From positions 1 through 64,000 of the forward strand of contig JAQWRV010000002.1 of the NCBI GenBank assembly GCA_029243545.1: a stretch of 64,000 bases of DNA, read 5' to 3'. Source of the DNA: Rhodospirillaceae bacterium (GTDB lineage Bacteria; Pseudomonadota; Alphaproteobacteria; Rhodospirillales; Rhodospirillaceae). The notes under the pieces are model-generated. The model had not been told where the DNA came from, did no database searches, and saw only the letters and a list, made by a program, of their open reading frames with translations. How positions within the stretch are numbered: the first letter of the stretch is position 1; each line of letters starts with the position of its first letter. Position numbers and translations under genes: made by a program. Below, piece after piece: positions 8,363-53,481 of this stretch.

Positions 8363-8446
8363 TGCTTCCCCTATCTCATATTTTTCTGCTTGGTTTTATT
8401 TGAGGCGAGTTTAGGGCCTGGCCGATGGCCGCGCTATACTTCAGAC

Positions 8447-17117: not shown

Positions 17118-18115
17118 TTTGCAAACACGCTCTTTGCTTCCAGCACCGCATCGTAAAGTGCTTGCGCTTCCCCACCAATACTCTCGATCAACGTTGCGTG
17201 GCTACCTTCTGTCGCGGCCATCCATACGGCGCGCTGATCCGCTGGTTGGCTGTGGACAGTGACACCGCGCGCTTCGACCCGGGCGAGGTCGTCCAGCACC
17301 CAGGCGCGCAGGATAGAACGGATGACGTCCACGGGCGGCACGGAGTCCGACAGTATTTTGCGATGGTCTTCGGACAAGGCGTCAAACCACGGCTTGCTGG
17401 CGGCGGTGACCCCAACCGAATAAGCATGGCGGGTCAGAGTCAGCGCCGGCGCTTCGGAATCCAGTCCGGCAACAGCGTAGATCATGGTCCCTGTTTCGCC
17501 GCCAGAAATGAGCCCGGTTTGTAAACCGGTGAACACGTCGGAGAACGGCAGCTGGATCATGTCGGCGCCGATGGACCGGAGAAACGACTGGGAGGCCGGC
17601 GATTGTAAGGCCCGCATGCGCACATCGTGCGTATCCTCAGGCGTGTTAAATACGGTATCGCCGTAGAGGTTGAACCAACCTTCATCACTGAAGGCGATGA
17701 GGTGCAGACCCTTCTCTGCCAGCAGGTCTTCAAAAAGCGGCGCCATATGAACATCGAGCACGTAGTCCACTTCCGCCTGGGAGCTAAACAAATAAGGCGT
17801 ACGCAGGATGTCAAACTCGGGCACGGCGGCAGTGATCCCGCTGGCGGTAAAGGCCGCCATCTGCACCCGCCCCCGGCGCACGGCCCGCATCAGCGCTTCT
17901 TCTGGGCCGGTCTCGCCACGAATAAGCATTTTGATGCCGAGGCCAGGAACGTTTCTGGCGGCAAAGTTTTCAGAAAATTTTTGCCAGTATTGATCAAACG
18001 GATCACCGGCAAAGGTCAACGCACCAATGGTGACGATTTCAGTTTCTTGCGCTGCCGGTTGCGTCAAAGGAACCATCGACAGTGCAAAGACGGCAGACAA
18101 GAACAAGTACTTCAC
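17102..18115 (-). CDS. TRAP transporter solute-binding protein, DctP family (copy 1)
   Basis: A 337-residue periplasmic binding protein with a Sec signal peptide of about 22 residues (MKYLFLSAVFALSMVPL opening). The ligand-binding part contains VRMRALQSPASQSFLRSIGA, where the second Arg corresponds to the carboxylate-binding Arg of DctP proteins, and VFTGLQTGLISGGE, matching the family's ALQTG-DGxE signature. No DctQ or DctM membrane genes are in the window. The start overlaps the stop of the upstream alpha/beta hydrolase gene by four bases (ATGA). The protein at 45571-46575 is a paralogue sitting in the same gene order. The ligand is probably a small organic acid. Confidence 0.88.
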   Translation of the reverse strand: MKYLFLSAVFALSMVPLTQPAAQETEIVTIGALTFAGDPFDQYWQKFSENFAARNVPGLGIKMLIRGETGPEEALMRAVRRGRVQMAAFTASGITAAVPEFDILRTPYLFSSQAEVDYVLDVHMAPLFEDLLAEKGLHLIAFSDEGWFNLYGDTVFNTPEDTHDVRMRALQSPASQSFLRSIGADMIQLPFSDVFTGLQTGLISGGETGTMIYAVAGLDSEAPALTLTRHAYSVGVTAASKPWFDALSEDHRKILSDSVPPVDVIRSILRAWVLDDLARVEARGVTVHSQPADQRAVWMAATEGSHATLIESIGGEAQALYDAVLEAKSVFANQISR

Positions 18116-18945
18116 GCTGTTCCGTCTTCAACCGATGAAATAAAGCGGTGCACCACATCGACGAACTGATCCGGTTCTTCGTCGGTGACATCAACGCCGA
18201 CCCAATCCATGTGTTCCCATTTCGCATTGGGGAAATAGGGTACAGCATCGCGGCTTTCGTTGTAGATGTGATCACGCGGGCCAGCGAACATAAGCACCGG
18301 GCATGAAATGCGCGCCGCCAACTCTTTGTGATCGGCGCTGCCAATGATGTGATAGGCGTAGTACCAAGTCGGGCCAGCCTGGAGCAATGCAATCATCGTG
18401 CGCAGGCCCATAGCTTCCGTGAAACGATTCTCAGAAGGGTCTTCGAGTTCGCGGCCACTCATCTCCCAGCGGCGGGTCCAGTGGTGTTTGACGATGTCAC
18501 CCTCTGGGTCGAACACCCGGGGTTTGGCGTTTACCATGTCATTAGCCCAGTCCGTACCTTTGATGTCGGTCCAGCCATAAACCATGAAGGATTTCACGTC
18601 TTGCGGATATTCAGCCGCCATAAAACCGGCAACTGTCCCGCCGAAGTGGTGTCCAAGAAGGTGATAAGAGGTGAAACCGAATGCCGTGGCCGCTTCGTGA
18701 GTCCAAGCGGCGAACTCTTCTCCTGATGGCTGATGCTGCGGCTTGGCGGAATTGCCCTGCCCCGGCACATCAATGGCGACAACGCGGTAGCCTTTGGCCG
18801 CGAAAACCGGCAACACCGGTTCGTACATGGTCGCCGCATCGGAGGTTTGATGCAGTAGAACCAAGGGAACGCCGCCCTCCGGCCCGGCCGTAAGACCGTG
18901 AACCTGGCCGATGGCCGTATCGACGTAATGTTTGCGTATGGTCAT
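18112..18945 (-). CDS. Alpha/beta hydrolase-fold protein with His at the nucleophile elbow (copy 1)
   Basis: The 277-residue protein has a clear alpha/beta hydrolase fold: LVLLHQTSDAATMY for the oxyanion strand and loop, VVAIDVPGQGNS, and LLGHHFGGTVAGF for the nucleophile elbow. In the elbow the expected Gly-x-Ser-x-Gly reads Gly98-His-His100-Phe-Gly102; the codon at 18646-18648 is CAC. The acid position is probably the Asp in FAGPRDHIY. The region that normally supplies the catalytic His (near DWVGVDVTDEEPDQFV) has none. It is therefore not a standard serine hydrolase. No signal peptide is visible, unlike the paralogue at 44669. It is the first gene of a hydrolase-binding protein pair. Confidence 0.85.
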   Translation of the reverse strand: MTIRKHYVDTAIGQVHGLTAGPEGGVPLVLLHQTSDAATMYEPVLPVFAAKGYRVVAIDVPGQGNSAKPQHQPSGEEFAAWTHEAATAFGFTSYHLLGHHFGGTVAGFMAAEYPQDVKSFMVYGWTDIKGTDWANDMVNAKPRVFDPEGDIVKHHWTRRWEMSGRELEDPSENRFTEAMGLRTMIALLQAGPTWYYAYHIIGSADHKELAARISCPVLMFAGPRDHIYNESRDAVPYFPNAKWEHMDWVGVDVTDEEPDQFVDVVHRFISSVEDGTA

Positions 18946-22563: not shown

Positions 22564-24063
22564 TTACTCCACAGTCATCTTATCGTAGTTCAACCCCCTG
22601 TCGGTTATGATGATGTTCTTAATCTCCTGCTTGGCCACAACCGTATTCGCGTGACTAATGAGGAATATGGACGGCGCCAAATCATGCATGTCCGCCATGA
22701 TGTTTTGCAGAGCACGATCGCGAGCGACGGGGTCGAACATGCTTCCGGTGGCTTCAATGGCTGGGACCATAGACGGTTCACAAAAATAAGGATTGGGTTT
22801 GAGGCATGAATACTGCTCCAAGGCGCGGATAGTATCGCGATACGCCCCAGCGTTCCACACCACTGACAGCACTTCCGTATCGCCCCAATCACTGGAAAAG
22901 TACTTCTGCAGCCATAGTGAGGCGACCACCGCCCTGACATCGAGGGTGACGCCAACGCGGGCAAGGTCCTGTGCTGCCTTTTCGTAAATGACCTGGGCCT
23001 GGCCAATTTCGACTTCCGCATCCAACTGGAATCCGTCGGCATAGCCTGCTTCCTTGAGCAGAGCGCGAGCACGAATGGGGTCATAGGGATAGGGTTTTAT
23101 GTCGGGATTGTAGCCCGCGGTGCCGGCGACAGCGCCCTGTCCGACAGGAGCCACCTCACCGTAATAGAACGCTGAAGCAATGGCTTCTTTATCGACGGCA
23201 TAATTGAGGGCTTGGCGCACACGGATATCGCGCAACGGCGATTCTTCATCGCCAAGATTGGGCAAAGCGAGCGCTCTAATCTGCGGTACTTCCTGAATGA
23301 TCACCTGAAAACCGGCGGCGCGCAGAAACTGAATATCATCGAACGCAACTTGGACCGTGATATCGATCTCGTCTGATTCCAAAGCCTGACGGCGGACGAT
23401 GGAGTCTCGGAGTGGATAGATCATATCGAGATGATCAAAATGAACAGGCGCTCGCCAGCTCGTGGTGTTGGCATAAAGCTGACTGCGGCCATTGTCCTCG
23501 CCCCAGTTTTCAATGGTGTAGGACCCGGTGCCGATGGGGGACAAAGCAAACTGCTGGGGACCGAGATCGTTCCACGCCTTGGGCGGCACCATCATGATCA
23601 AGCTCACGCGCTTAGGCAGAATGGCATCGGGCGCGCGGGTCACGACCTCCAACGTCAGGTCGTCAATTACGTGAACACCGGATACGGCCTTAAGTTCGCT
23701 GGCCATCATGGTCGTTTTTCCATCTGGGCCGATTAACCATTGTATAACCTGCGCGGCGGCATCCGCATTAAAGGGTTCGCCGTTGGAAAATGTTACATCC
23801 GGCCGAAGACGAAAAACCCATGTTGTGTCGGATGTGGCTTCCCATGATAACGCCAATTCGGGAATCACTTGGCCGTTGGAATTAATCCGGGTCAGAGCAT
23901 CAAAGATGGTGGACGGGATTTGAGTCACCGACGAAACCAGCGACATATAGGGATTGCCCATCGGGCTGGTTTTGGCCGGCACACCTACACGCAGAGTCTC
24001 GGCGGAAACTGGCCAAAATACCAACAACGTCCACAGTACGGTAACGATAAATGTGCGACTCAT
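22564..24063 (-). CDS. Family 5 extracellular solute-binding protein (ABC type)
   Basis: An ABC-type periplasmic binding protein of about 499 residues related to the one at 8447-9967. The ATG at 24063 gives a good signal peptide (MSRTFIVTVLWTLLVFW...SAE); the frame is open upstream to 24177, but that part would precede the signal. Family marks are LSPIGTGSYTIENWG, PLRDIRVRQALNYAVDKE and YNPDIKPYPYDPIRARALL. No permease gene follows: the amidohydrolase gene lies 70 bases downstream on the same strand. The start is 81 bases from the divergent nitrilase gene, whose product may act on the same compound. Ligand unknown. Confidence 0.9.
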   Translation of the reverse strand: MSRTFIVTVLWTLLVFWPVSAETLRVGVPAKTSPMGNPYMSLVSSVTQIPSTIFDALTRINSNGQVIPELALSWEATSDTTWVFRLRPDVTFSNGEPFNADAAAQVIQWLIGPDGKTTMMASELKAVSGVHVIDDLTLEVVTRAPDAILPKRVSLIMMVPPKAWNDLGPQQFALSPIGTGSYTIENWGEDNGRSQLYANTTSWRAPVHFDHLDMIYPLRDSIVRRQALESDEIDITVQVAFDDIQFLRAAGFQVIIQEVPQIRALALPNLGDEESPLRDIRVRQALNYAVDKEAIASAFYYGEVAPVGQGAVAGTAGYNPDIKPYPYDPIRARALLKEAGYADGFQLDAEVEIGQAQVIYEKAAQDLARVGVTLDVRAVVASLWLQKYFSSDWGDTEVLSVVWNAGAYRDTIRALEQYSCLKPNPYFCEPSMVPAIEATGSMFDPVARDRALQNIMADMHDLAPSIFLISHANTVVAKQEIKNIIITDRGLNYDKMTVE

Positions 24064-24144
24064 CTTGTCTTGTGCCCTCTCGGCTTGCCCGTCACCATGG
24101 TCAAACACATAAGTGTAGGACTTACACGAAGGAAACACCAAGTC

Positions 24145-25218
24145 ATGGTTCCCATATTTACAGCGGCCGCAGTCCAAACAAACGTCTGGCCTGTTTACCC
24201 CTCTCGCTCTGGCGAAGCGGTGATGGAAAACAAAGAAAAAAATATCACCCGGGCTATAGATTTGATTCTTAGGCTTGCGGAATGGAATCCGGCCAAGATC
24301 TACGTCCTACCCGAATTCTTCATGACCGGGGCTGGTGGCGTCGGCCGGGCTGAGAAAGACCGCGAGAAAATATGCGTCCGCTTTCCAGGGCCGGAAATGG
24401 AACGCTTCGGAGAAGCCGCCAAACAGGCCAACGCCTATATCGCCGGTATGGTTTGGGAAGTCATGGACGACTGGCCGGGCCGATACTGGAATACGGCGTT
24501 CATTATGGCGCCCTCAGGCGAATGCGTACTGAAGTATCACAAACACTATGACCCAACCGGCAAAACGAAGCCGGGTGACGTGCTGGACGAATATGTGGAT
24601 CGCTACGGCGAAGACCAACTGTTCCCAGTGGTCGACACACCATACGGCAAGCTCGCCTGCCTCACCTGCTACGATATCAACTTTCCGGAAATGTCGCGCA
24701 GTCTGGCCCTGAACGGTGCAGAAATATTGCTGCACCCCACGTCCGAAGGACGCGCGCCATTCATGCTGGAAGATGTGGGTGGCTGGGAAATCGGCAAACG
24801 CAGCCGGGCTTATGAAAACCTTTGTTATCTCATCTCCGCCAACCAAGGACAGTTCTTGGGCTCTGACTTCCCGACCGACCGCATGCGCGGACGCTCGCAG
24901 ATCATCGACTTTACAGGGCGTGTCATGAACATCGCGGAGACTACAGGCGAAGTCATTGTTCAAGTCGACATTGAACTGGAGCGGCAGCGCCAGAAACGCA
25001 GTCAGATGCAGATGAACTTTCTAGCTCAAGTCCAAACCGAACTGCACGCCCGCCAATACGCGCGCAAAACCATGTGGCCGGCGCGGATGTGGGCCGACGA
25101 ACCACCGCAAGGCGACCTCGGCAACATCAAGAAAGGCCGTGAGATTATCCAGCGGCTGATTAAGGATGGCACGATTACACCGCCCGGCGAACATATGGAT
25201 AAGGATAGTTACGTTTAA
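24145..25218 (+). CDS. Carbon-nitrogen hydrolase (nitrilase superfamily), intact triad
   Basis: A 357-residue enzyme of the nitrilase/amidase superfamily, which hydrolyses nitriles or amides. The Glu-Lys-Cys triad is complete: Glu57 in YVLPEFFMTG, Lys133 in LKYHKHYDP and Cys175 in CLTCYDINFPE. I use the ATG at 24145, preceded by an AGGAAA ribosome site; the longer open frame upstream overlaps the divergent binding protein gene and is not plausible. There is no signal peptide. A second nitrilase homologue follows about 100 bases downstream. The nearest functional type is unclear: the size and the GGWEIGKRSRAYENLCYLISANQG region fit aliphatic amidases or N-carbamoyl-type enzymes. Confidence 0.9.
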   Translation: MVPIFTAAAVQTNVWPVYPSRSGEAVMENKEKNITRAIDLILRLAEWNPAKIYVLPEFFMTGAGGVGRAEKDREKICVRFPGPEMERFGEAAKQANAYIAGMVWEVMDDWPGRYWNTAFIMAPSGECVLKYHKHYDPTGKTKPGDVLDEYVDRYGEDQLFPVVDTPYGKLACLTCYDINFPEMSRSLALNGAEILLHPTSEGRAPFMLEDVGGWEIGKRSRAYENLCYLISANQGQFLGSDFPTDRMRGRSQIIDFTGRVMNIAETTGEVIVQVDIELERQRQKRSQMQMNFLAQVQTELHARQYARKTMWPARMWADEPPQGDLGNIKKGREIIQRLIKDGTITPPGEHMDKDSYV

Positions 25219-25320: not shown

Positions 25321-26397
25321 ATGATTCCCCGTTATTACGCCCTCGCCGTTCAGACCATTGTTAACCCTATTCGTGCGGATGTGTCTGGGCCCGAAGAAGG
25401 CCGTGCCATCATCAAGGACAACTTAGATGCGGCGTTGGACCTCATGCAAAAGGGGCTGGGCAACAGCCTCGGTGCCGTAAAGCTTGTGACTTTGCCGGAG
25501 ATGTTTCTGACATTAGCGCCTGCCGCATGGCGCGGACGCAAGTCCATCGACTGGCTCGATGTGGGCTGTATTGAAATACCAGGTCCCGAACTAGAACCAC
25601 TGTTTCAAGCGGCGCGGGACTTCAACGTTTTCATTGGCGCCAACGCATATGAGTACGACCCCAAGTGGCCCAATCGCTATTTTAATTGCTCCTTCCTGGT
25701 AAACCCAAAAGGGGAAGTGGTTCTCAAATACCGGCGCCTCCACTCGCTCAGCACGCCCTCACCCCATGACTTTTTGGATGAATATGTTGACGTTGAAGGC
25801 TGGGACGCTTTGTGGCCCGTGGCCGACACGGAGATCGGCCGTATCGGCATGTTCCCCTGCATGGAAATCACCAAGCCGGAAGTGGCGCGCATGCTGGCCA
25901 TGAAAGGCGCCGAGGTGTTGCTCAATCCCACCTCAGACTCTCCCGACTTTCCGGGCTGGAGCGCGTGCAAACAGGCCCGCGCGCTAGAGAATAACTGTTA
26001 TTTGATTTCCACCAACACAGGCGGCTGGGTCAGCAAGCGCGGATTCCTGGAATCCACCAACGCCGGCGGTACCAAGATCATCGATTACTACGGCAACATT
26101 ATCAACGAGTGCGTGCCGTCCGGTGAAAGCATGAAGACCCGGGCGCTCATCGACATCGAGCAACTACGCGCCCACCGCCACTCCAACAACAGCTTCAACG
26201 TCATCGCCCAACTGCGCACCGAGCTCTATACCGAATACAAAAAGACCATCACACCGCCCAACCGTTTCCAGAACGGCATGGAAGATCAATCTCAGCTGCG
26301 TGGACTCTATAAGGAAGTGATGGACCGCATGACGGCAGAGGGCCTGTTCCCGCCGCCGCTGCATGAAGGTGTGAGTGAACCATCAGTAGATAGCTAA
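25321..26397 (+). CDS. Carbon-nitrogen hydrolase homologue with Arg at the Lys position
   Basis: A 358-residue paralogue of the upstream nitrilase. Glu60 (VTLPEMFLT) and Cys180 (GMFPCMEITKPE) are in place. The segment aligning with Lys133 of the neighbour reads LKYRRLHSL, so by eye the catalytic Lys is Arg139. That change would be expected to reduce or alter activity, unless the adjacent Lys136 takes over. It contains the same ARALENNCYLISTNTGG region as active family members. It is probably co-transcribed with the upstream nitrilase, which suggests the two could form a mixed oligomer. No signal peptide. Confidence 0.88.
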   Translation: MIPRYYALAVQTIVNPIRADVSGPEEGRAIIKDNLDAALDLMQKGLGNSLGAVKLVTLPEMFLTLAPAAWRGRKSIDWLDVGCIEIPGPELEPLFQAARDFNVFIGANAYEYDPKWPNRYFNCSFLVNPKGEVVLKYRRLHSLSTPSPHDFLDEYVDVEGWDALWPVADTEIGRIGMFPCMEITKPEVARMLAMKGAEVLLNPTSDSPDFPGWSACKQARALENNCYLISTNTGGWVSKRGFLESTNAGGTKIIDYYGNIINECVPSGESMKTRALIDIEQLRAHRHSNNSFNVIAQLRTELYTEYKKTITPPNRFQNGMEDQSQLRGLYKEVMDRMTAEGLFPPPLHEGVSEPSVDS

Positions 26398-31541: not shown

Positions 31542-31624
31542 CTCTACGTGAATGCGCGCCATATCGCCGTGGCCAACCGCCGCGGAACAGGGCAGGATAG
31601 ATGCAGAAAATGGAGAGGGGCAAC

Positions 31625-32572
31625 ATGCTGACACGACGCACCATGATGGGGGGAACAGCCGCGACTGCCGTGCCGATCTCTCTGGGTGCGTCCAGCACAG
31701 CCGCCCCTGCTGCACCAGACAAAGCCAAAGGAGACGCACCCATGGAAGTTGATCGCACGTTTGTCCGCATTGAAGAAGGACTGGTTCATTACCGTCATGC
31801 CGGTGAATCAAAGGGTGGCAGACCGTTACCGCTCTATATGATGCATGCAGGACCTGGGTCCTCACGGGGACTCGAAAGTTTGGTCGCTGTCCTTGGCAAC
31901 AGCCGCCGCGCAATCGCCGCCGACACGCTCGGCTTTGGTGATTCCGCACCGCCCGTACCCGACGTTCCAGACTTGGAGTACTACGCCGACAGTGTCGTGC
32001 GCATTTGGGATGTGCTCGGCCTCGACAAAGTAGATGTCTATGGTAGCCATACCGGCGCCAACATAGGTCTGGAGATTGCTATCACTCATCCAGACCGGGT
32101 GCGCAAGCTGGTGTTCGATGGTGTGGCTTTGTTTGACCCGGTCCTCGCCGCCGACATGCTTGAGAATTATGCGCCAGAAATGGCTCCGCAGGAAAACGGC
32201 ACGCATTTCATCTGGGCGTGGAATTTCTTGAAAGACATGGGTGTTTACTTCCCCCACTACAAACGGGATTCCGAGCACTACCTGGGCAAAGAACCTTGGC
32301 CGGACGAGTCGCTGCACAACAGCGTGCTCGATGTGATGAAGGCGTTAAAGCACTATCACAAGGGCTATAACGCTGTGTTCCGCCACAAGACCCATGAACG
32401 GCTACCGCTGCTGACCGTGCCAACATTCTGCATGGCTCATAAAGCCGACCCCCTGCATGTTTCCGTGCAAGAAGCCGCCGCTTTAGTGCCAAATTCAGAG
32501 CATCTGGTGTTGCCTGTTACAGCAGGCACTGATGCCAAGGCCGAGGCCGTGGTTAAGTTCTTAGACGCGTAG
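31625..32572 (+). CDS. Tat-exported alpha/beta hydrolase-fold protein with His elbow
   Basis: A 315-residue alpha/beta hydrolase with a twin-arginine signal (MLTRRTMMGGTAATAVP). The ATG at 31625 follows a GGAGAGGGG ribosome site and is preferred to the upstream ATG at 31601. The fold shows LYMMHAGPGSSRGL, AIAADTLGFGDSAPP and VDVYGSHTGANIGLEIA. The elbow reads Gly140-Ser-His142-Thr-Gly144, so His replaces the nucleophilic Ser. The acid may be Asp in AHKADPLHV. The C-terminal stretch LPVTAGTDAKAEAVVKFL has no catalytic His. Lid residues are rich in aromatic groups (HFIWAWNFLKDMGVYFPHY). It shares these unusual traits with the proteins at 18112 and 44669. Confidence 0.85.
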   Translation: MLTRRTMMGGTAATAVPISLGASSTAAPAAPDKAKGDAPMEVDRTFVRIEEGLVHYRHAGESKGGRPLPLYMMHAGPGSSRGLESLVAVLGNSRRAIAADTLGFGDSAPPVPDVPDLEYYADSVVRIWDVLGLDKVDVYGSHTGANIGLEIAITHPDRVRKLVFDGVALFDPVLAADMLENYAPEMAPQENGTHFIWAWNFLKDMGVYFPHYKRDSEHYLGKEPWPDESLHNSVLDVMKALKHYHKGYNAVFRHKTHERLPLLTVPTFCMAHKADPLHVSVQEAAALVPNSEHLVLPVTAGTDAKAEAVVKFLDA

Positions 32573-33884: not shown

Positions 33885-35695
33885 GATTGCAGGCCCGCGA
33901 CCCACGCTTGCACTTGTTCTTCCAGCACCGTTAGCGGCAGAGCACCGTTGATGAGTACAACATCGTGGTAAGCGCGGATGTCGAACTTGTCGCCCAGTTC
34001 CACCTTTGCCCACTCGCGCAGCTCCAAGATTTTCATCATACCTATTTTGTAGGCTGTGGCCTGTCCCGGCATGACGATGTACCGCTCGATAGACTTGGTG
34101 ATCTCAGCATCGGGCGCCGGCGTGTTCTGCTTGAGATAGTCGATGGCCTGTTCGCGGGTCCACTTCTTATCATGCATGCCCGTATCAACGACCAAACGGC
34201 AGGCGCGCCACAACTCCATGGATAAACGGCCGAAGTCGGCATAGGGGTCTGCGTAAAGGCCCATCTCCTTCGGCAAAAATTCAGAATAGAGGCCCCAACC
34301 TTCTACATAAGCGGTGAAACCGCCGTACTTGCGGAACCTGGGCATGTTCTCAAGTTCCTGGGTGATGGCAATTTGCATGTGATGGCCTGGAATGGCTTCG
34401 TGATAAGCCAGTGCATCCAACTCATAGGTGGGCATGGCCGTCATGTCGTAAAGGTTGACGTAATATCGCCCAGGGCGGTCTCCAGTCGGTGACGGCGATT
34501 GATAGAACGCTTTTCCAGCAGAGCGTTCGCGAAACTCTTCGACCCGCTTCACATCCAGGTCAGCTTTTGGCTTGGTGGCGAAGACGCTGTCCAGACGCAT
34601 TTTCATATCGGCGATGAGGACGTTGGTGCGGGCGAGGTACTGCTCCCGGCCCTCATCAGTATTGGGCAGAAAAAACTGCTCGCCTTCCCGCATGAAGGTG
34701 AAAAATTCTTGCAGGTCTCCGTCAAACGTGACCTGCGCCATGATGCCACGCATTTCACCATGGATGCGGGCGACTTCGGATAAACCGAGATCGTGAATCT
34801 CTGTCGCGGTGAGGTCCGTCGTGGTGATGTATTTGAGCTGATGACGGTAATAATTTTCACCGTCAGGATGCTTCCAGGCGCCGTCATCGGTGTTGGCAGC
34901 GGCCTTCTGTTGTTCCGTAAGCGCGATGAGATCGTGATACGCAGGCGCTACGGAATCAAGGAGTGCCTCAGACGCACGGGCGATGAGATCAGTTTGGGTT
35001 TCCGCATCTAAGTTGAGTGCAGTGGTTTTCTTACGGAAATCTGAAAGCAGAGTTGAGTCTTCGCCACTGCCGTCAAACGGGGTGCCGGTAATCACATTAG
35101 CGGAATCCCGGAGTACGTGATCAAACACGAACTGTGGCGGCAAAATCCCGGCCTCTTGCGCTGCCTTCATACGTGCCATCACCTGGTCGAATAGGGTGCG
35201 CACACCAAACAGTCGGGAAATGTAGGCTTCTGCGTCGGACCGGTCGGCAACCTGATGAATATTGATCAGGAACGCCGGCATATCGGACTGCCAGCCGAAC
35301 ATCTGATTGACCGGGTAACCGTGAAACCGAAATTGGTGGCGATCGAGCTTTTCCTGCACTTCACGCTCGAACAAGCGGTAGCTGATGCGCGCTTGTTCGT
35401 CGAAAGCGTCAAAATCGAACTCCTTAAGAAGACGCATATCATCCTCAGAGACAGCTAGGTCGGCCGCGTCATCTTCCGGTGAATGATCGTCCCACTTGCC
35501 GTAGTCGTCTTTGATGCCGAGGTAAGATTGCCATTCGGGACTGCGTGCAATCCAATTGTCGAAGCGTTCATTGGCAAAAACACCGAAGCGTTCGCTTTCG
35601 GAGCGGCTATCGACAGGCATTTGCGGCTGTTCAGAATCGCAAGCGGATAGAGCCAGCAAAACGCTAGCTATGAAAAGGGGTGCAATTTTCATCAT
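33881..35695 (-). CDS. DUF885 family lipoprotein, putative metallopeptidase
   Basis: A 604-residue protein with a lipoprotein signal (LLALSACDS, lipid-modified Cys19). DUF885 proteins are predicted zinc peptidases. The motif YHEAIPGHHMQIAI is at about residues 431-444, with the HExxx-GHH pattern of the family. Further family stretches are SPSPTGDRPGRYYVNLYDM, GFTAYVEGWGLYSEFLPKEM and PGQATAYKIGMMKILELREW. Its start overlaps the stop of the upstream oligopeptide-binding protein gene by four bases (ATGA). The pair may degrade and bind peptides at the inner membrane or in the periplasm. Confidence 0.88.
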   Translation of the reverse strand: MMKIAPLFIASVLLALSACDSEQPQMPVDSRSESERFGVFANERFDNWIARSPEWQSYLGIKDDYGKWDDHSPEDDAADLAVSEDDMRLLKEFDFDAFDEQARISYRLFEREVQEKLDRHQFRFHGYPVNQMFGWQSDMPAFLINIHQVADRSDAEAYISRLFGVRTLFDQVMARMKAAQEAGILPPQFVFDHVLRDSANVITGTPFDGSGEDSTLLSDFRKKTTALNLDAETQTDLIARASEALLDSVAPAYHDLIALTEQQKAAANTDDGAWKHPDGENYYRHQLKYITTTDLTATEIHDLGLSEVARIHGEMRGIMAQVTFDGDLQEFFTFMREGEQFFLPNTDEGREQYLARTNVLIADMKMRLDSVFATKPKADLDVKRVEEFRERSAGKAFYQSPSPTGDRPGRYYVNLYDMTAMPTYELDALAYHEAIPGHHMQIAITQELENMPRFRKYGGFTAYVEGWGLYSEFLPKEMGLYADPYADFGRLSMELWRACRLVVDTGMHDKKWTREQAIDYLKQNTPAPDAEITKSIERYIVMPGQATAYKIGMMKILELREWAKVELGDKFDIRAYHDVVLINGALPLTVLEEQVQAWVAGLQS

Positions 35696-37290
35696 TGGGC
35701 AGCCTTAGTTTCATCTAAAGACATAAATCGGGTGCGGTGAATGTTGTTGATTGCGTCTTCAAAGCCATTTACGCGCTTCGACACAAGATTCCGATGGGTA
35801 CTGAAATCGATGGTGACAACGGGATGGTCGTTGAGCATGACCTGTTCAGCCTCTGACATAAGCCGCGCGCGTTCGCCTAAGTCTAAAGTAAGTGCGGCTT
35901 TTTGAATAAGCGCATCATAGTCAGGATTGCAGTAATCGGGATAGTTCATGGGCCCCGCATCGCAAAGCAGGAGATAGAGAAAGTTATAGGGGTCATTGTA
36001 ATCGGCCACCCAGCCAGCATCGCCCATGACGTAGTCGCCGGTTTGCAAACGGTTATAGGCAATGCGGGTTTCGAATCCGGCAATATCTGCGATCACACCG
36101 GCCCGTCTCAGCATGGCTGCCGTGCCGGCCATCACCCGTTGATTATCATAAGAGCTACGGAATATGAGTTCGAACCTAAGTGGGTTGTCATCATTATAGC
36201 CCGCATTCTTGAGAAGACGCTTCGCTTCGATGGTACGCTTGGACATGGACCAGTCCGCAAAATCCACCTGTGCTCCCGCTTGGTGGTTCGCGGTTTCCGG
36301 CGGTACGAACGCGTAGGCTGTTTTATTGCCGACAGGCAGAATGCGCTCATTGATGATGTCCCGGTCAATGAGCATGGATACCGCCTTTCGCACGCGCACA
36401 TCGTCAAACGGAGGCCTAGATGTGTTCATGGGAAAATAACTACTTCCCAGATACGGGTAGACCCGTGCCTCTCCAGGCATCTCAGCCAACAGCTCTTTTA
36501 TTTGCGGCGCAGGAAATCCACCGGTCGATATGTTCATATGAATTTCGCCTGACTTGAACATTTTTACGGCGGTGCGGCTGTCTTCAATGGGATAATAATA
36601 GACCGTATCGATAGCGACGTTGTCAGCGTCATAGAACAATGGATTTTTCGTCACCTTGACCTGAGAATTGGAAACCCATTCCTGCAGCACATAGGCACCG
36701 TTAGAGACCATCTTGCCTGGCTTGACCCAATCGTCTCCGAATTTCTCAACCACATGCTGCGGGATGGGATAGGTCGTGTAGTGGGATAGCAGTTCAGGCA
36801 AAAACGGTGCCGGAGCTTCTAAAGTAATTTCCACCGTTTGAGGATCGATGGCGCGAATACCCATTTGATCGGGATTCAGTTGCCCGGTGTTGATGGCGTA
36901 TGCATTTTTGATTGGATAAAGAAGCGAACCGTATTGCGACGCAGTCATCGGATTGATGACCCGCCGGAAACCAAAGACGAAATCACTGGCAGTGACCGGC
37001 ACGCCGTCGGACCACACCAGTCCATCGCGCAGCTTAAAAGTGTAGACGAGACCGTCGTCACTGACCATCCAGCTCTCAGCGGCACCGGGGATAGCTTTCC
37101 CCTTGGGGTTCTCCGTCGTCAAACCCAGGAACATGTCGCCGATAATGTTGTTTTCCCAAGTGCCAGTGCCGCGGTGCGGGTCAAGGGTATCCGGCTCTGT
37201 GCCGTTGCCACGGTGGAGCACTATCTCCGCTAACGCGGTTCCCATGCTTAGGAGAGAAAACGCAACAAGCGCACGCAGGAGAAAGGTCAT
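35692..37290 (-). CDS. Oligopeptide-binding protein, OppA-like
   Basis: A family 5 binding protein of about 532 residues, closest by eye to OppA/MppA. The ATG at 37290 gives a Sec signal (MTFLLRALVAFSLLSMGTALA); an ATG at 37311 would add seven residues. OppA marks include GTEPDTLDPHRGTG, VTASDFVFGFRRVINP, PVTASDF-type loops, FDDVRVRKAVSMLIDRDII and DAGWVADYNDPYNFL. There is no opp permease or ATPase gene here. It is coupled by a 4-base overlap to a DUF885 peptidase gene, which supports a peptide ligand. About 200 bases upstream is a divergent methyltransferase gene. Confidence 0.9.
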   Translation of the reverse strand: MTFLLRALVAFSLLSMGTALAEIVLHRGNGTEPDTLDPHRGTGTWENNIIGDMFLGLTTENPKGKAIPGAAESWMVSDDGLVYTFKLRDGLVWSDGVPVTASDFVFGFRRVINPMTASQYGSLLYPIKNAYAINTGQLNPDQMGIRAIDPQTVEITLEAPAPFLPELLSHYTTYPIPQHVVEKFGDDWVKPGKMVSNGAYVLQEWVSNSQVKVTKNPLFYDADNVAIDTVYYYPIEDSRTAVKMFKSGEIHMNISTGGFPAPQIKELLAEMPGEARVYPYLGSSYFPMNTSRPPFDDVRVRKAVSMLIDRDIINERILPVGNKTAYAFVPPETANHQAGAQVDFADWSMSKRTIEAKRLLKNAGYNDDNPLRFELIFRSSYDNQRVMAGTAAMLRRAGVIADIAGFETRIAYNRLQTGDYVMGDAGWVADYNDPYNFLYLLLCDAGPMNYPDYCNPDYDALIQKAALTLDLGERARLMSEAEQVMLNDHPVVTIDFSTHRNLVSKRVNGFEDAINNIHRTRFMSLDETKAAQ

Positions 37291-37494
37291 GGGCGGCTCC
37301 AAAATGGACAATCTGACGAAGACCTTAGCGGTTTGAAGTGTACGTGAGTCAAGGCGAATCGGCGGCTTTTAAAGCACTGCGATCGGGCGAATTATTTGTG
37401 AACGTAGATGCCGCGTCTCCGTTGACAGGGGGCACACCCTCCCTCACCCTCCCATTCTGAACGCGCCTCAGTTCCACTGCGAAGGAAATGTGAC

Positions 37495-38610
37495 ATGCCG
37501 GATAGCCATAACACCAACAATAACCCAGAATTCGGACCGAAGCAGAGCCGGGACTACAAGGCTTATCAGGAATTTATCCGCTGCTCCTATGTCAACGTCT
37601 ATAACAAAGTGACGGAACAGGCCTACCTGGAATACTTCAAAGAACGCGACACACACCACGCCGGTGAGCCCGAAACACGGGAACTGGCTGCCAAGATCAT
37701 GGATACTACTCCGGCCTATCAGCTCAAGGCCTGGAGCATCCGCAATCTCCGGCGGTTAAAATACAGCCAGCCTGATCTGGGCATCGACCGGATGATGCAT
37801 GATCAGAGCGGCGAACTGGACCCGGAAATAAATGCGTTGATTTCTGATGCGGGCGAAGACCTCATTTTAAATCCCGATCTCGACATGCCCGATTATTTTA
37901 GCTGGGTAGATTTCCATCAACAACCGGGTGGCGTGTGGCGCGACGATGTGGATGGGTTGGTTTACGATTACGGCCGGCGCACCACCAACCCCAATGAAGC
38001 CGACCCCAACCGCGTTTACCAAGTCATGTGGGATAACCTGCCTAAGGACAGAGAATACAAACGGGTGCTGGACTGGGGCACAGGACACGGCGGCGGAATC
38101 GTTTATTGGATGGAGAACCATCCAGAGAGCGAAGGCTATGGCGTCGATGTGGCCGCGCCCTGTTTAAAACTTGCTCATGTGCGCGCCCAAGAAGCCCGGG
38201 TGCCGGTGAAATTCTCGCAGCAAGACATTGCAGCTATGGATTACGAAAACGAATTTTTCGACATGGTGTTCCATATGTTCATGTTCCACGAACTGCCCCA
38301 GCAAGTAACGCCGGACCTCTTTAAGGAGGTGCTGAGAGTCCTTAAACCAGGTGGTGTTTTTATTGGCATGGAAATTTCACTAATTCCCGATCAACCGGCG
38401 CAACATATTATGCAGTTCACGGATGGTTGGTTGAACAACGAGCCCTATATGCCAGCAAGCATAGACGCAGATTATCCCGCTATTGCAAAAGCTGCGGGCT
38501 TTTCTAAAGCGAAAGCGATAGGGGCGAATCGGAGCCGCGAAGCCTTTGGCAATACGGCCAAGAATACTCCACCAAAGGCAACGTGGAATTACTACGTGTT
38601 TGAGAAATAG
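37495..38610 (+). CDS. Class I SAM-dependent methyltransferase (cytoplasmic paralogue)
   Basis: A 371-residue methyltransferase. The C-terminal 190 residues form the Rossmann-like domain: motif I VLDWGTGHGGGIVYW, an acidic end of beta 2 in GYGVDVAAPCLKLAHVRAQE, motif II around YENEFFDMVFHMFMFHELP and motif III EVLRVLKPGGVFIGMEIS. The N-terminal 170 residues are helical and shared with the protein at 52291. It has GGAAAT-like sequence before the ATG and no signal peptide. It is followed without a gap by a 116-residue protein that also has a paralogue beside the second methyltransferase, so the two proteins probably act together. The methyl acceptor is unknown. Confidence 0.88.
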   Translation: MPDSHNTNNNPEFGPKQSRDYKAYQEFIRCSYVNVYNKVTEQAYLEYFKERDTHHAGEPETRELAAKIMDTTPAYQLKAWSIRNLRRLKYSQPDLGIDRMMHDQSGELDPEINALISDAGEDLILNPDLDMPDYFSWVDFHQQPGGVWRDDVDGLVYDYGRRTTNPNEADPNRVYQVMWDNLPKDREYKRVLDWGTGHGGGIVYWMENHPESEGYGVDVAAPCLKLAHVRAQEARVPVKFSQQDIAAMDYENEFFDMVFHMFMFHELPQQVTPDLFKEVLRVLKPGGVFIGMEISLIPDQPAQHIMQFTDGWLNNEPYMPASIDADYPAIAKAAGFSKAKAIGANRSREAFGNTAKNTPPKATWNYYVFEK

Positions 38611-41164: not shown

Positions 41165-41551
41165 ATGAAACTTTGTGCAATGGGGATGGACGAGAACGAC
41201 CGGTCGATTACGACCGAGCTTGAAATCCCAATGAAACAAGTAAGCGAAACGGAATGGATCTCTGAAAAACAAGATGCCCTCTATTGGGGAATCGCTGAGA
41301 GCCAGCCGCAGGAGCCTTTTCCAGGCGGGCCACATGAACAGCACCTCACCAACGGCGCCCGCATTGTGTGGTCCATGCAAGGCCATGCGGAAATCACCCA
41401 ACAGAGCGGGGAGACGTGCCGTCTTGCACCGGGCGAAGGCATCTATGTGGATGGACGGGCGTTGCACCATTCCACGTTTCACGCCAGCAGGGTGCCGGTG
41501 ATCACGCTCAACGTGACCTTCGAAGAAACCGAAAACCATGAATTCAAATAG
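41165..41551 (+). CDS. Small cupin protein (copy 2 in cluster)
   Basis: A 128-residue single-domain cupin, third in the row, starting 20 bases after the bicupin with a GAGGAAAAA ribosome site. Segments: YWGIAESQPQEPFPGGPHEQ, RIVWSMQGHAEITQQSGETC and GEGIYVDGRALHHSTFHAS. The PHEQ and LHHSTFH parts could supply metal ligands. Its end overlaps one possible start of the nitrilase-like gene. No signal peptide. Confidence 0.8.
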   Translation: MKLCAMGMDENDRSITTELEIPMKQVSETEWISEKQDALYWGIAESQPQEPFPGGPHEQHLTNGARIVWSMQGHAEITQQSGETCRLAPGEGIYVDGRALHHSTFHASRVPVITLNVTFEETENHEFK

Positions 41552-41564
41552 TAGGTTCGCAATA

Positions 41565-42719
41565 ATGAAAAACGATAAGACATCAAACCAAACCGTATCG
41601 CGCCGCTCAGCGTTGGCCGCGACCACCATGCTTGGCTCAGTTACCGCGCTTGGAACAACTGTTCCCGCAAAACCTGCACAAGCTGCCGTCGATAACGACA
41701 TCAGCGTCGCTGCAGACGGTAAATATGAGCGGGCGGGCCTGAAGAAAGACGTCATCAAGGTCATTGCCATTCAGTCTCAGCTTATTGGCGTTGATTCAGA
41801 ACGGCCCAAGCCACAGATGCGCAAGAACCTTGAAAAGATGATCGAACTAATCGATTCCGCCAACGGCTTCATCCCCGGCAAGCAAGACCTGCTGTGTTTC
41901 CACGAACAACCTATCATGGGCTGGCAACCGTGGAACCGCGATGAAGCGCTCAAGGTCGCCATTGAAGTGCCGGGGCCTGAAACAGAAGCGCTGGGCAAAA
42001 AAGCCAGGGAGCATGGCTGCTACATCGCCTTCGGCTCCTACGTGCGTGACGAAGAGAACTGGCCGGGCCATCTGCTGCTCACCGGTGTCCTGATCGGGCC
42101 CAGCGGCGAGGTCGTTGCTAATCACTGGAAGCAGCACAATGTGCGTTTGAACCCGGCCTGGACCATGTTCACCACATCGGCTTATGACGTGCTGCCCCGC
42201 TACATTGAAATGTATGGCGAAGACGCCGTGCTGCCGGTGGCCCGCACCGACATCGGTAATCTTGCGCTGGTGACCTCACCTTATGATCCCGACATTCATC
42301 GCGCCCTCGCCTTGAAGGGCACAGAGATTGAGGTGCGGTTTTCGTCGGGCGGTTTTAGCCAGACAGACTCCAAGTCGTCGTCGTTCTTCAACGGCAACTA
42401 CACCATCACCTGCAACCAATCCATGTCGCCGGATCAACCCGGGTTTCCCGATGCCGGCGGCTCGGGCGGCACCAGTATTTACGGTCCGCGCGGGGTGGAA
42501 CTGGGTATGGCCAAGACGATCCACGAGGAATTTGTCGGGACGCGTATCAACATGAGCGACTTCCGCCGCCGCCATAAGCTGCCCGACATGCCGAAGGCCT
42601 TGGTGATGCCCGTGTATGAGAAGTATCAGCCACCGTGGGACCCCGGTCTCTCGCTGGACTACATCCCCGACGACCTGGAAGACTCAGCCCGGTATCTGAA
42701 CGGCAAGCGGAACTGGTAG
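41565..42719 (+). CDS. Tat-exported nitrilase-superfamily protein without the catalytic Cys
   Basis: A protein of 384 residues from the ATG at 41565 (393 if the ATG at 41538 is used; numbering here follows the longer form). The twin-arginine signal is VSRRSALAATTMLGS. The carbon-nitrogen hydrolase fold is clear: Glu123 in LLCFHEQPIMGW and Lys198 in VVANHWKQHN are in the triad positions. The Cys position reads LALVTSPYDPDIH, where CYDxxFPE-like sequence is normal, so Ser247 stands for Cys. It is most likely catalytically altered or inactive. It closes the cupin cluster and is the only exported one of the three nitrilase homologues here. Confidence 0.87.
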   Translation: MKNDKTSNQTVSRRSALAATTMLGSVTALGTTVPAKPAQAAVDNDISVAADGKYERAGLKKDVIKVIAIQSQLIGVDSERPKPQMRKNLEKMIELIDSANGFIPGKQDLLCFHEQPIMGWQPWNRDEALKVAIEVPGPETEALGKKAREHGCYIAFGSYVRDEENWPGHLLLTGVLIGPSGEVVANHWKQHNVRLNPAWTMFTTSAYDVLPRYIEMYGEDAVLPVARTDIGNLALVTSPYDPDIHRALALKGTEIEVRFSSGGFSQTDSKSSSFFNGNYTITCNQSMSPDQPGFPDAGGSGGTSIYGPRGVELGMAKTIHEEFVGTRINMSDFRRRHKLPDMPKALVMPVYEKYQPPWDPGLSLDYIPDDLEDSARYLNGKRNW

Positions 42720-44668: not shown

Positions 44669-45574
44669 ATGAGCAAACAATCATACTTGGCTGCAGTACT
44701 CGGCCTGTGTTCGGCCTTGCTCGCAACCGGAGCCACAGCGGAGGATGGAGTGATCTACAAAAAAGGATACGTCGACGGGCCGTATGGGCAAATTCACTAT
44801 CACTCAGCACGCCCGGAGTTCGGCGATGGTGACAAAACACCGGTGGTGCTCTTCCATCAGAATCCAAAGTCAGCAGAAGAGTATCGTCCCCTTACGGAAC
44901 TGATCGGCCGGGATCGCGTCGCGTTCGCCTTTGACACCCCAGGCTACGGTGAATCCGATCGCCCCGACTCGCCACCGGATATGGTCGGCATCTCCGGCGC
45001 CATGGCCGACGCTTTAGAGGCTTTGGAGTATGGTGAAGGCGGTAAGGGAAAAGTAGATGTGTTTGGTTTCCACACCGGCGTGTTCATTGCTTCGGAACTG
45101 GCACTTCGGAGGCCGGATTTGGTGCGCCGGGTAGTGCTTTCAGGCATTGCCTATCGTCCTCAAGAATACCGTGACGAACGGCTAGCCAGTCTGCCAAAGG
45201 ATAAACCGTTGCCCGAAGACGGCACCTTTGTCCTGAGCCGGTGGTACCTCATGGTGACCAACCGGCCTGAAGGCGTATCCCTTGAGCGGGCATCCAAAAT
45301 TTTCCTAGAAGACATCCATTCCCTTGATAAGTCTTGGTACGCCTATGACGCCGTATGGACTTACAAACCGGAAGATCGTTTCCCGAAAATTACTCAGCCT
45401 GTTCTTGTGCTTCAGCCCCATGAAATGCTCACTCAGCAGACGTTGAATGCACAGCGGGAATTGCTGCCGAAGTCCGATCTAATTGAAATACCGGAAATTA
45501 CCGAAAGTGTATTTGAAACCGGGCCAGAAGAAATTTCTTCCGCCTTGACCACTTGGCTGGACACACCCAAGTGA
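44669..45574 (+). CDS. Exported alpha/beta hydrolase-fold protein with His elbow (copy 2)
   Basis: A 301-residue protein with a Sec signal (LAAVLGLCSALLATGATA). The fold is alpha/beta hydrolase: VVLFHQNPKSAEEY, FAFDTPGYGESDRPD and VDVFGFHTGVFIASELAL. The elbow is Gly133-Phe-His135-Thr-Gly137, with His (codon CAC, 45071-45073) in place of Ser. The C-terminal IPEITESVFETGPEEISS has no catalytic His and the acid strand reads LQPHEMLTQQ. It is followed by a TRAP binding protein gene with a 4-base overlap, exactly as copy 1 at 18112. A GGAG ribosome site precedes the ATG. Confidence 0.87.
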   Translation: MSKQSYLAAVLGLCSALLATGATAEDGVIYKKGYVDGPYGQIHYHSARPEFGDGDKTPVVLFHQNPKSAEEYRPLTELIGRDRVAFAFDTPGYGESDRPDSPPDMVGISGAMADALEALEYGEGGKGKVDVFGFHTGVFIASELALRRPDLVRRVVLSGIAYRPQEYRDERLASLPKDKPLPEDGTFVLSRWYLMVTNRPEGVSLERASKIFLEDIHSLDKSWYAYDAVWTYKPEDRFPKITQPVLVLQPHEMLTQQTLNAQRELLPKSDLIEIPEITESVFETGPEEISSALTTWLDTPK

Positions 45575-46575
45575 GATATTTCTTCGCGGCTCTCATTGGA
45601 CTGACCGCTTTGGCAGCACCAACTCAGGAGAGCCGCGCAGAGGATGTAAACATTGGCGGTTTTGTTATCCCGGGATCGATTGCCTCCACACTTTTTTATG
45701 ATTACGAAAAGCTCTTGATAAAAGAGTCTGACGGTGCTTTGGACCCCAACCTCCTTATCCACGGCGAAGGTGGGCCAGAAGAACAAATTCTCACGGGTAT
45801 TCGTCGTGGACGGATACACGTCGCCTCACTGTCGACATTGGTTCTCTCTAATATCGTTCCTGAATTAGGATATCTGGGCGCTCCTTTTCTGTATGAAAGC
45901 AAGGAACAATTCGATCATGTCGTTGATACACAGTACTTCAAGATTTTCAGCCCATTACTTGCGGAGCGTGACCTTACCATTTTGCGATGGCTCGACCTGG
46001 GGGGACAAAACATCTATGCGAAAAAACCAATCCTTTGGCCAAAAGATGCGGTAGGCGTTCGCTTGCGCGCCACACAAGATTTAGCCGCGAGATTGTTTCT
46101 AGAATCTGTCGACGCCGACGTAATTTACATTACGAGCCCAGAGACCATACCTGGTCTGCAAACCGGCTTGATTGATGGCGGCGTAACACCAACCGTCGCC
46201 TATGCAGGAACAGGTCTAGTTCCAGACGCACCCCACTATACGCTGACGCGGCACTTTTATCTGGGTGGGTTTCTCCTAGCCAATAAAAGTTGGCTGGAGG
46301 GACTTCCAAGTGACCAGAGACGTATCGTTATTGATTCGTTTGCCAGCAATTCAGAAGTTCGTGCCGTGATCAAAAAAATGATCACCACTGCACTGTCTTC
46401 TGCCGACGAACAAAACTTCACGGCCCATGAATTGACTCCTGAGCAGCGCCAAGCATGGCGCGCAGCCACCATCGGTACACATCCAAAAATCATCAACGAG
46501 ATTGGTGGTCGAACACAAGAGATTGCTGATGCTCTTGCCCAAGGGCGCGCTTCGTATTTAACTACTCATCCTTAG
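45571..46575 (+). CDS. TRAP transporter solute-binding protein, DctP family (copy 2)
   Basis: A protein of about 334 residues starting at the GTG at 45571, which overlaps the hydrolase stop as GTGA and gives an ideal signal peptide (RYFFAALIGLTALAAPT). The frame is open to 45553 but that start adds a poor N-terminus. DctP marks: GVRLRATQDLAARLFLES with the binding Arg, and IPGLQTGLIDGGVTP. It shares GGPEEQILTGIRRGRIHVAS-type sequence with copy 1 (GPEEALMRAVRRGRVQMAA). No membrane subunits are present. It converges with the M14 gene with only six bases between stops. Confidence 0.88.
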   Translation: MRYFFAALIGLTALAAPTQESRAEDVNIGGFVIPGSIASTLFYDYEKLLIKESDGALDPNLLIHGEGGPEEQILTGIRRGRIHVASLSTLVLSNIVPELGYLGAPFLYESKEQFDHVVDTQYFKIFSPLLAERDLTILRWLDLGGQNIYAKKPILWPKDAVGVRLRATQDLAARLFLESVDADVIYITSPETIPGLQTGLIDGGVTPTVAYAGTGLVPDAPHYTLTRHFYLGGFLLANKSWLEGLPSDQRRIVIDSFASNSEVRAVIKKMITTALSSADEQNFTAHELTPEQRQAWRAATIGTHPKIINEIGGRTQEIADALAQGRASYLTTHP

Positions 46576-52252: not shown

Positions 52253-52308
52253 GTTAGGTCCCTATGCCCGTTTATAACCCCGTTAGGGCGCTACGCCCGC
52301 TTATAACC
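52253..52308. repeat. Imperfect tandem copy of the methyltransferase 3' end
   Basis: Two 27-base units (52253-52279 and 52282-52308) match at 23 positions. On the minus strand both read Gly-Tyr-Lys-Arg-Ala-stop; the unit at 52282 is the real end of the methyltransferase gene. Within these codons the copies differ only at synonymous sites. Confidence 0.75.
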
Positions 52309-53481
52309 AATCACGTTACGGGTGGTATCGGTACGGCCGGCTGGACCATTCTCGTCGACCTCAAAGCCTGCATCACGCATAGCCTGGGCAATATCGAGGT
52401 CATAGTACTCCATCCACCAGACTTCATGATTCCAACGGTAGTTGCGCCATGCATCGTATTTGGATAGAGCCGTGTTGCGTGGCTGATCGCCCGTATAACT
52501 ATCGAGCGGATAGAAAACACCGCCCGGCCGGAGTACGCGGAAAGCTTCCTTAGCCAGGTCACGAACCTTATCTGCAGGCATTTCATGAACAAGCAAATTA
52601 TTGGTGACGAGGTCGAAGTATCCGTCTGGGAATTGGCTCTCCTCAGATAGACCCTGAACATAATTGATGTTCATGTTGTGCTCTACGGTACGCATATGTG
52701 CAAAACGGAGCATGGGTGCAGCGATGTCATCGCCCCAGACTTCTGCGTCCGGGAACATGCGTTTCAACACCATGGAGAACTGGCCGTCGCTGCACCCCTG
52801 ATCGAGAACCCGTTGGACCTTGCCATCGGCTGGACGGGGCATGGCGCGTGACCAGGAGACCTGCAGATTGTCTTGGTAATTGCCATTCGGGAAGACCACA
52901 TTCTGACCGTGGTAATATATGTAGCCAGAAAAGCGATCACCCACATATCCGCCGGGCTGTATATGGATTTCATATTTTGCGTAGTCGGGGATGAAGATGT
53001 CAGGCTTGAGCTCGAGTGAACCCGGGCCCTGCTTTTCTGCCGACGCCAGCTCTTCCAAATATAGATCCGCATTTTTGTCGTATACGGCTTTGATTTCTCT
53101 CCACATGATTTCCTGAGTACGTTCCCAATTGTGGAGATCTAAGGCGATCGTGGGGTCTGACGTGAACAAAGCCACCGCGTCATCAATCGGAAGGTCGTCC
53201 GTCGGCTTTAAGCCATTCTCTCTGAGGAGTTTAAAGGCCTGCTTTAGCGCCGAACGATGCAGGGACTTGTACATCCACACTCGGTAGCCAGTATGAAAAT
53301 CCAACCCGCTTTCCGCGTTGAGGCTTGGTAAGCGTTCGAACAGCCCTCTAGACCCGCGCGGTTCTACATCCAGCTCAAGGCCATCTGCTTTTGCCACATC
53401 CCGCGCCAGTGCTTTCGCAATAGGTGTTGCAGATACTGCTGTCGCGACTGTTGAGGTGAAAAGGGTTCTGCGGTTCATCAT
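52291..53481 (-). CDS. Methyltransferase-domain protein with a Tat-type signal
   Basis: A 396-residue paralogue of the methyltransferase at 37495. Motif I is VLDQGCSDGQFSMVLKRMFP, followed by VWGDDIAAPMLRFAHMRTVE, FPDGYFDLVTNNLLVHEMP and EAFRVLRPGGVFYPLDSYTG. Unlike the paralogue it begins MMNRRTLFTSTVATAVSATP, a twin-arginine signal with a suitable hydrophobic core. Export of a SAM-dependent enzyme would be odd because the cofactor is cytoplasmic; the segment might instead act as an anchor. It follows its small partner gene by 49 bases. The motif I glycines are partly replaced (GCSDG), which leaves cofactor binding uncertain. Confidence 0.86.
   Translation of the reverse strand: MMNRRTLFTSTVATAVSATPIAKALARDVAKADGLELDVEPRGSRGLFERLPSLNAESGLDFHTGYRVWMYKSLHRSALKQAFKLLRENGLKPTDDLPIDDAVALFTSDPTIALDLHNWERTQEIMWREIKAVYDKNADLYLEELASAEKQGPGSLELKPDIFIPDYAKYEIHIQPGGYVGDRFSGYIYYHGQNVVFPNGNYQDNLQVSWSRAMPRPADGKVQRVLDQGCSDGQFSMVLKRMFPDAEVWGDDIAAPMLRFAHMRTVEHNMNINYVQGLSEESQFPDGYFDLVTNNLLVHEMPADKVRDLAKEAFRVLRPGGVFYPLDSYTGDQPRNTALSKYDAWRNYRWNHEVWWMEYYDLDIAQAMRDAGFEVDENGPAGRTDTTRNVIGYKRA

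Follow-up and report, generated by a model that had tools for sequence, protein, structure and literature searches.

Within the alpha/beta-hydrolase fold, RutD of E. coli carries Ala at the elbow place, and in HOD the base His sits after beta8, not at the elbow. As described in PMC10548524, the base of HOD is a His-Asp dyad (H251 and D126, with S101 at the nucleophile position) and no acyl-enzyme is formed, and MKS1 has no triad and carries out a decarboxylation with a His base and a neighbouring Thr. A classification from 2024 covers Ser, Asp, Cys and serine-less sites in its section on active sites, and that section describes no His elbow (PMC11878206). As for binding proteins, the account of the related TTT family in PMC5812351 tells of many orphan binding proteins and few permeases.

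We analysed a window of 64,000 bases (the whole stretch of DNA, positions 1-64000 of contig C37 of a 3.475 Mb assembly), which holds three members of a hydrolase-like family, two of them coupled to a gene for a DctP-type binding protein (Table 1). Compared with Abhydrolase_1 proteins (PF00561; esterases, enol-lactonases, C-C hydrolases), the family has the same fold and shares most core motifs (GQxHY, HxxP, DTPGxGxSD), but it has a His-Thr elbow in place of Ser, Asp or Cys, and most members have lost the triad His. The general base that we propose for it, a His working without an acyl-enzyme, resembles that of MKS1 and HOD, by their descriptions, only in the mechanism proposed, and the family His stands at the elbow itself, where HOD has S101, its base pair being H251 and D126. 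P0001 has no His at the triad-His place, which we take to be the position used by HOD and MKS1. Like TRAP DctP proteins, P0002 and P0004 carry the DctP domain (PF03480, NF037995), scoring 145 and 176 bits with the NCBIfam model TRAP_S1 (NF037995, cut-off 50), and the narrower TIGR00787 was not reached by either (70.7 and 89.2 against a cut-off of 175.05). Unlike in usual TRAP systems, the partner gene is here a hydrolase. The permease-less setting noted in the original prediction was borne out for DctM, since none of the eight matches of the genome lies on contig C37; all are on six other contigs.

Table 1. Positions in the window of the genes and motifs discussed
Feature	Position	Strand	Remark
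P0001, exported His-elbow protein of the alpha/beta-hydrolase fold	44669..45574	+	301 aa; coordinates include the stop
Nucleophile elbow G133-F134-H135-T136-G137 of P0001	45065..45079	+	codons GGT TTC CAC ACC GGC
P0002, DctP-type TRAP solute-binding protein	45571..46575	+	GTG start possible at 45571
P0003, second His-elbow hydrolase	18112..18945	-	277 aa, no leader
Elbow G98-H99-H100-F101-G102 of P0003 (LGHHFGG)	18640..18654	-	
P0004, DctP-type binding protein	17102..18115	-	GTGA overlap with P0003
Third family member, elbow YGSHTGA	31601..32572	+	leader looks Tat-like by eye; not paired with DctP
SAM methyltransferase co-expanded with the His-elbow hydrolases	37495..38610	+	
Second SAM methyltransferase, same co-expanded family	52291..53481	-	
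ABC-type family-5 solute-binding protein	8390..9967	+	by eye
ABC-type family-5 solute-binding protein	22564..24177	-	by eye
ABC-type family-5 solute-binding protein	35692..37311	-	Pfam-confirmed
C-N hydrolase	23869..25218	+	by eye
C-N hydrolase	25321..26397	+	Pfam-confirmed
C-N hydrolase	41538..42719	+	Pfam-confirmed; 2 to 6 matches each in 6 of 41 genomes, own included

His135 at the nucleophile elbow of P0001

In Pfam, P0001 is an Abhydrolase_1 protein (41 bits, cut-off 25.8) and P0002 a DctP protein (123 bits, cut-off 23.4). The stop of the first gene and the start of the second share the bases GTGA at 45571-45574, which confirms the overlap described earlier. The hydrophobic leader of P0001 was detected by a simple hydrophobicity rule, and that of P0002 was recognized by eye. 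To look at the fold, we used an AF2 model of P0001 (pLDDT 92.4, pTM 0.88, from a 39-sequence alignment). It has eight strands of at least four residues, and residues 135-137 come right after strand 129-134. All 1000 PDB chains that were re-aligned to the model reached Z>=8, and the best 50 of the 1000 are titled alpha/beta hydrolases; the best one was 7jqz (Z 26.5, rmsd 3.0, 266 aligned residues), tied at Z of about 26, among the chains listed, with PhaZ, an esterase, CarC and an enol-lactonase. The model, the re-alignment and the Pfam score thus agree on an alpha/beta-hydrolase fold in which His135 directly follows a strand.

The elbow of P0001 reads VFGFHTGV in its context, with His135 in the place of Ser, Cys or Asp. 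That His replaces the elbow Ser had been the central claim of the original prediction, and it holds: when P0001 is aligned with nine relatives (40-75% identity), the elbow His is present in 10/10 sequences, so that a sequencing error or chance is excluded. In the same alignment, H43, H63 and H135 are all invariant. The loss of the catalytic His was also found as claimed, since P0001 has Glu in the triad-His column of the family alignment; in the acid column it has Met, with a Glu one column earlier. We considered that P0001 could be an ordinary serine hydrolase whose nucleophile had been misplaced by alignment. This is extremely improbable: Ser does occur elsewhere in the protein, but the family, profile and ortholog alignments all place His at the elbow, and the triad His is missing. 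A nucleophile elsewhere in the protein was rejected on the ortholog and family alignments. In two further sets of alignments, of which five and four were examined, no His stood at the elbow, and no NCBIfam model reached its cut-off with P0001 or P0003.

The His-elbow family: size, spread and active site

P0001 matches 58 places in its own genome at E<=1e-3, a number in which fusions are counted per domain and which includes fragments and a few ordinary hydrolases. Once four ORFs truncated at locus ends and copies nested in others had been taken out, the checked set consists of 48 ORFs (40 single-domain and 8 two-domain). The elbow is His in 33 of the 40 single-domain ORFs, and in the remaining seven it is Ser (two ORFs), Leu, Phe, Gly, Ala or Tyr. 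A wider alignment gave His in 35/44 single-domain places; the third member of the window lies outside both the 40- and the 44-place sets. Among the eight fusions, five first domains and none of the second domains carry the elbow His, seven of these second domains being degenerate and one reading GESIG. These fusions were found at loci L064, L066, L067, L068, L070, L073 and L074. Elsewhere, five fusions have HTG in both domains and several others lack His in the second. As a side observation, in the tandem genes L014/L011 (GYATG beside GYHTG), and also at L095, one copy has Ala and its neighbour His at the elbow, and these are perhaps unequal partners. A leader was detected in 6/49 ORFs (the 48 and the third window member) by the hydrophobicity rule, which misses Tat-like leaders such as that of 31601-32572, and most family members look cytoplasmic.

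A match to P0001 at E<=1e-20 was found in 9/41 genomes (own, same family, same order), eight of which have at least 8 matches. The family profile was matched at E<=1e-40 in 29 of 385 sampled genomes of the class, with at most six candidates scored per genome. Scanning named genomes confirmed 234 stretches, and 80 of these were kept as loci. By their labels, they come mainly from Rhodospirillaceae and Alphaproteobacteria MAGs and from sphingomonads (Novosphingobium, Sphingomonas), with a minority from Steroidobacteraceae, Chloroflexi, Marinimicrobia and Acidimicrobiia; the five nearest are 70-78% identical and labelled Rhodospirillaceae or Alphaproteobacteria. The His-Thr elbow was seen in records named Alphaproteobacteria, Gammaproteobacteria, Chloroflexi and Acidimicrobiia.

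For the comparison of active sites, 291 domains were aligned on a profile built from the own-genome members, and domains filling less than 75% of the columns were dropped. The elbow residue is His in 219 domains, Ser in 38 and another residue in 34. A GxHTG subfamily, which the original prediction had suspected to be hidden among uncharacterised hydrolases, thus exists and is large, both here and in the single-domain ORFs of the own genome. In the His group, Thr directly follows the His in 215/219 domains (98%). The Ser group looks like ordinary hydrolases of the triad type, with Asp in the acid column in 33/38 domains and the triad His in 28/29 ungapped ones. In the His group, Asp stands in the acid column in 113/219 domains, some acid lies within three columns of it in 193/219, and the triad His is kept in 42/182 ungapped domains. 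Other marks of the His group, defined as features common to less than 40% of the Ser group, are a Glu eight residues past the His (84%), a Gln two positions ahead of the first conserved His (87%) and, past the second conserved His, a Pro at three and a Ser at five residues (91% and 93%). The elbow counts on the 80-locus set lean to His because loci were chosen by patterns (one with HT, one DTPGYG-like); these pattern-chosen loci form part of the 291 domains, and loci found by similarity were therefore counted separately. The elbow is His in 30/31 of those found with P0001 as the query and in 30/40 of those found with a profile, itself built mostly from His members.

We also built a tree of 89 chosen rows from which the elbow, acid and triad-His columns were excluded. 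It splits into 76 rows (54 His, which are all of them, 20 other and 2 Ser) and a second part of 11 Ser and 2 other rows, with an SH-aLRT support of 88 that is under the 95 mark. The tree fits a single origin of the His class followed by losses, although it is no proof of it. The elbow His and the Asp were lost in the same way in a mean of 2.6, and in opposite ways in 0.1, of five independent pairs, which points in the favoured direction, with a number of pairs too small for significance.

The constraint on His-Thr over several phyla argues for a working residue and, since nucleophile-free enzymes are known in this fold, a role of the elbow His in acid/base catalysis is favoured. Against it, the elbow His is not universal, being replaced in 7/40 own-genome ORFs and by Tyr in one type of DctP-coupled hydrolase (type 3, below), P0001 itself has no Asp in the acid column, and the base of HOD is placed after beta8 and not at the elbow. 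The main rival is that the family is non-catalytic and made of ligand-binding or regulatory pseudoenzymes that keep the fold and the pocket. The loss of both Ser and triad His in most members, the exchange of the elbow His for Ala, Gly, Phe, Leu or Tyr in some, and the second domains without it in 8/8 own-genome fusions, and in several elsewhere, are what such proteins would show. Nevertheless, the retention of Thr after His in nearly all His-type domains is unlike a drift after loss of function, some 50 copies in a 3.5 Mb genome fit enzymes better, and HTG stands in both domains of the five fusions from other genomes. We therefore regard pseudoenzymes as unlikely, though well within consideration. 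It is rather less probable that the elbow His is itself a covalent nucleophile, or that it binds a metal together with H43 and H63, in a new hydrolytic chemistry. The three His are indeed invariant in P0001 and its nine relatives, and the equivalents of H43 and H63 (columns 18 and 32) are His in 98% of the His group, but these columns are also rich in His in the Ser group (72% and 95%) and so are not specific.

Pairing of family hydrolases with DctP genes

According to the original prediction, the second pair of the window (17102-18945) repeats the arrangement and the Ser-to-His change of the first. The layout and the GTGA overlap are indeed alike, but in P0003 a Phe follows the His and the leader is missing. 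The duplication of a two-gene unit was not borne out either, since the hydrolases of the two pairs are 20% and the DctP proteins 32% identical, with the hydrolases in different parts of the tree. On these identities, a recent duplication was rejected. At E<=1e-40, P0003 had no relative in the eight other genomes searched.

We then looked for pairs in up to 400 bases around the own genome's 25 DctP genes and 46 in five relatives, the latter being P0002 matches at E<=1e-40 (for one of the 46, at G016 C410 (L277), the contig stops on the upstream side, so that no partner could have shown there). The DctP gene is immediately preceded on its strand by a family hydrolase in 3/25 own and 6/46 relatives' cases, 9/71 in total, and the reverse order, with DctP first, was not seen among these 71 genes in six genomes. 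Within pairs the spacing is -22 to +12 bases when the first possible start codon is taken, except at G016 C22; the start of its DctP gene is uncertain, and 29 bases separate the matched regions. One further case, G016 C76 (L278), was not counted as a pair: the gene before DctP is a weak match of 52 bits with the elbow ATSTS.

Five types of pairs were found among the six genomes. Type 1 (P0001/P0002) is present, with a constant gene order, in seven genomes, namely the own genome, G001, G023 (apparently identical with L110), L107, L108, L109 and L111. Type 2 (P0003/P0004) was not found in the eight relatives searched. Type 3 (P0005/P0006, at G000:C35 in the own genome) has the elbow GTYTG or GNYTG and occurs in the own genome, G023 and G016; its elbow is Tyr in 3/3 genomes (orthologs L262 at G023:C20 and L243/L274 at G016:C22). 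Type 4, in G016, has the elbow GSHTG; its hydrolase (L283) is absent from the family alignment because of the 75% or duplicate filter and was read separately. Type 5, in G005, is a two-domain fusion with GFHTS in the first domain. The pair thus recurs in other genomes, as had been anticipated. In the tree, the type 1, type 2 and type 3 hydrolases each have a separate place, so that the coupling to DctP seems to have arisen repeatedly, and this apparent repeated origin is the best argument that the pairing is meaningful. Against it, distance alone is not significant in the own genome, where 3/25 DctP genes are within 1.6 kb of a family hydrolase for a rotation mean of 1.1 (p 0.09); the rotation took in 48 of the family's 58 places (each fusion once, without fragments), 39 of at least 48 methyltransferases (those listed and on contigs of known length), the 25 DctP and seven of the eight DctM genes. 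Over the 80 loci, some of which are cut by contig ends, a DctP gene lies at most 800 bases from a family hydrolase in only 5.

The original prediction had a binding protein handing a ligand to, or signalling with, the hydrolase. This fails as a general rule. In types 2 and 3, the hydrolase is without a leader while its DctP partner has a leader-like start (by eye); the two are thus expected in different compartments, where they would not meet, and a ligand hand-off is unlikely. Going by these leaders, only a P0001-type hydrolase could meet its DctP protein in the periplasm. That the two form a physical or signalling unit there agrees with the leaders on both type 1 proteins and with their constant order in seven genomes, but it is at odds with types 2 and 3 and with three P0001 relatives of G016 (53-57% identity), in whose 1.5 kb flanks no DctP was found; we consider such a unit very unlikely. 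Altogether, the sequence facts first described were confirmed as right, the generalisation reached here is broader, and the hand-off is not general.

DctP proteins bind carboxylates via a conserved Arg. The own genome has 25 DctP and 8 DctM matches, and 5 of the 25 DctP genes are within 3 kb of a DctM (seven DctM genes used). We read the pairs as an uptake protein and a catabolic enzyme, in which the DctP protein would use distant DctQM permeases, a use that we infer. As a separate observation, no adjoining permease gene was noticed at the three family-5 binding-protein genes of the window.

Co-expanded methyltransferases and the proposed function

The window also holds two genes of a SAM-methyltransferase family that has at least 48 copies in the own genome (48/48 scored candidates matched, of 77 candidates). 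At E<=1e-20, this family is found in exactly those 8/41 genomes that have at least 8 P0001 matches; since these eight belong to one family, their co-occurrence alone may reflect common descent. Among 59 P0001 matches (E<=1e-15, elbows not read singly) from 17 other genomes, which are mainly of sphingomonads, 26 have a methyltransferase of this family within 7 kb, and the clustering is seen in 13 of the 17 genomes. The expected number was 1.0, assuming a uniform spread, and the methyltransferase query itself came from beside a hydrolase. In the own genome, linkage was not significant, with 9/39 methyltransferases within 6 kb of a hydrolase for a mean of 5.7 (p 0.12). The structure model of the methyltransferase was poor (pLDDT 58.5). 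Over the 80 loci, frequent neighbours include MFS transporters at 25 loci, TonB receptors (assigned by eye) at 23, M24-type proteins at 13 and C-N hydrolases at 12, and these neighbourhoods look like catabolic gene clusters. The clustering in sphingomonads with methyltransferase, C-N hydrolase, monooxygenase and dehydrogenase genes also fits enzymes better than pseudoenzymes.

The reading that we prefer, tentatively and at somewhat less than an even chance, is that of a nucleophile-free enzyme with the elbow His as general acid/base, in an expanded catabolic branch that is in part organized in operons with DctP. The elbow His, sometimes with an acid after strand beta7, would serve as general acid/base in a reaction of the lyase, decarboxylase or hydration type that involves neither nucleophile nor acyl-enzyme. 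The branch would have grown to about 50 genes for the catabolism of varied organic acids and related compounds. In a few cases, a gene of the GxHTG branch would head an operon with a DctP gene, whose product would pass the matching carboxylate to a DctQM permease, of which the cell has few and whose genes lie elsewhere, and the hydrolase-like enzyme would act on this carboxylate in the periplasm (P0001) or in the cytoplasm (types 2 and 3). A more far-reaching reading, possible but clearly less probable, is that GxHTG marks a new enzyme class with its base in the elbow which, together with the equally expanded methyltransferase family, makes up a modular catabolic system of about 100 genes. The orphan binding proteins would then be interchangeable substrate collectors for few permeases, in a genome that is presumably aquatic, as judged from its relatives.

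In the titles and abstract openings of open-licence texts, we found no account of the His elbow, the expansion or the cluster, and no activity or structure of a family member turned up. Enzymology has few folds as well studied as the alpha/beta-hydrolase fold, and a conserved His class is absent from the active-site scheme as given in that section of PMC11878206. Such a class, extending over several phyla, with dozens of copies in some genomes and with members in cultured Novosphingobium as well, would be directly testable. Many proteins that the profile libraries used here place only by fold would thereby gain a function, with the co-expanded methyltransferases as a second handle on the unknown pathway.
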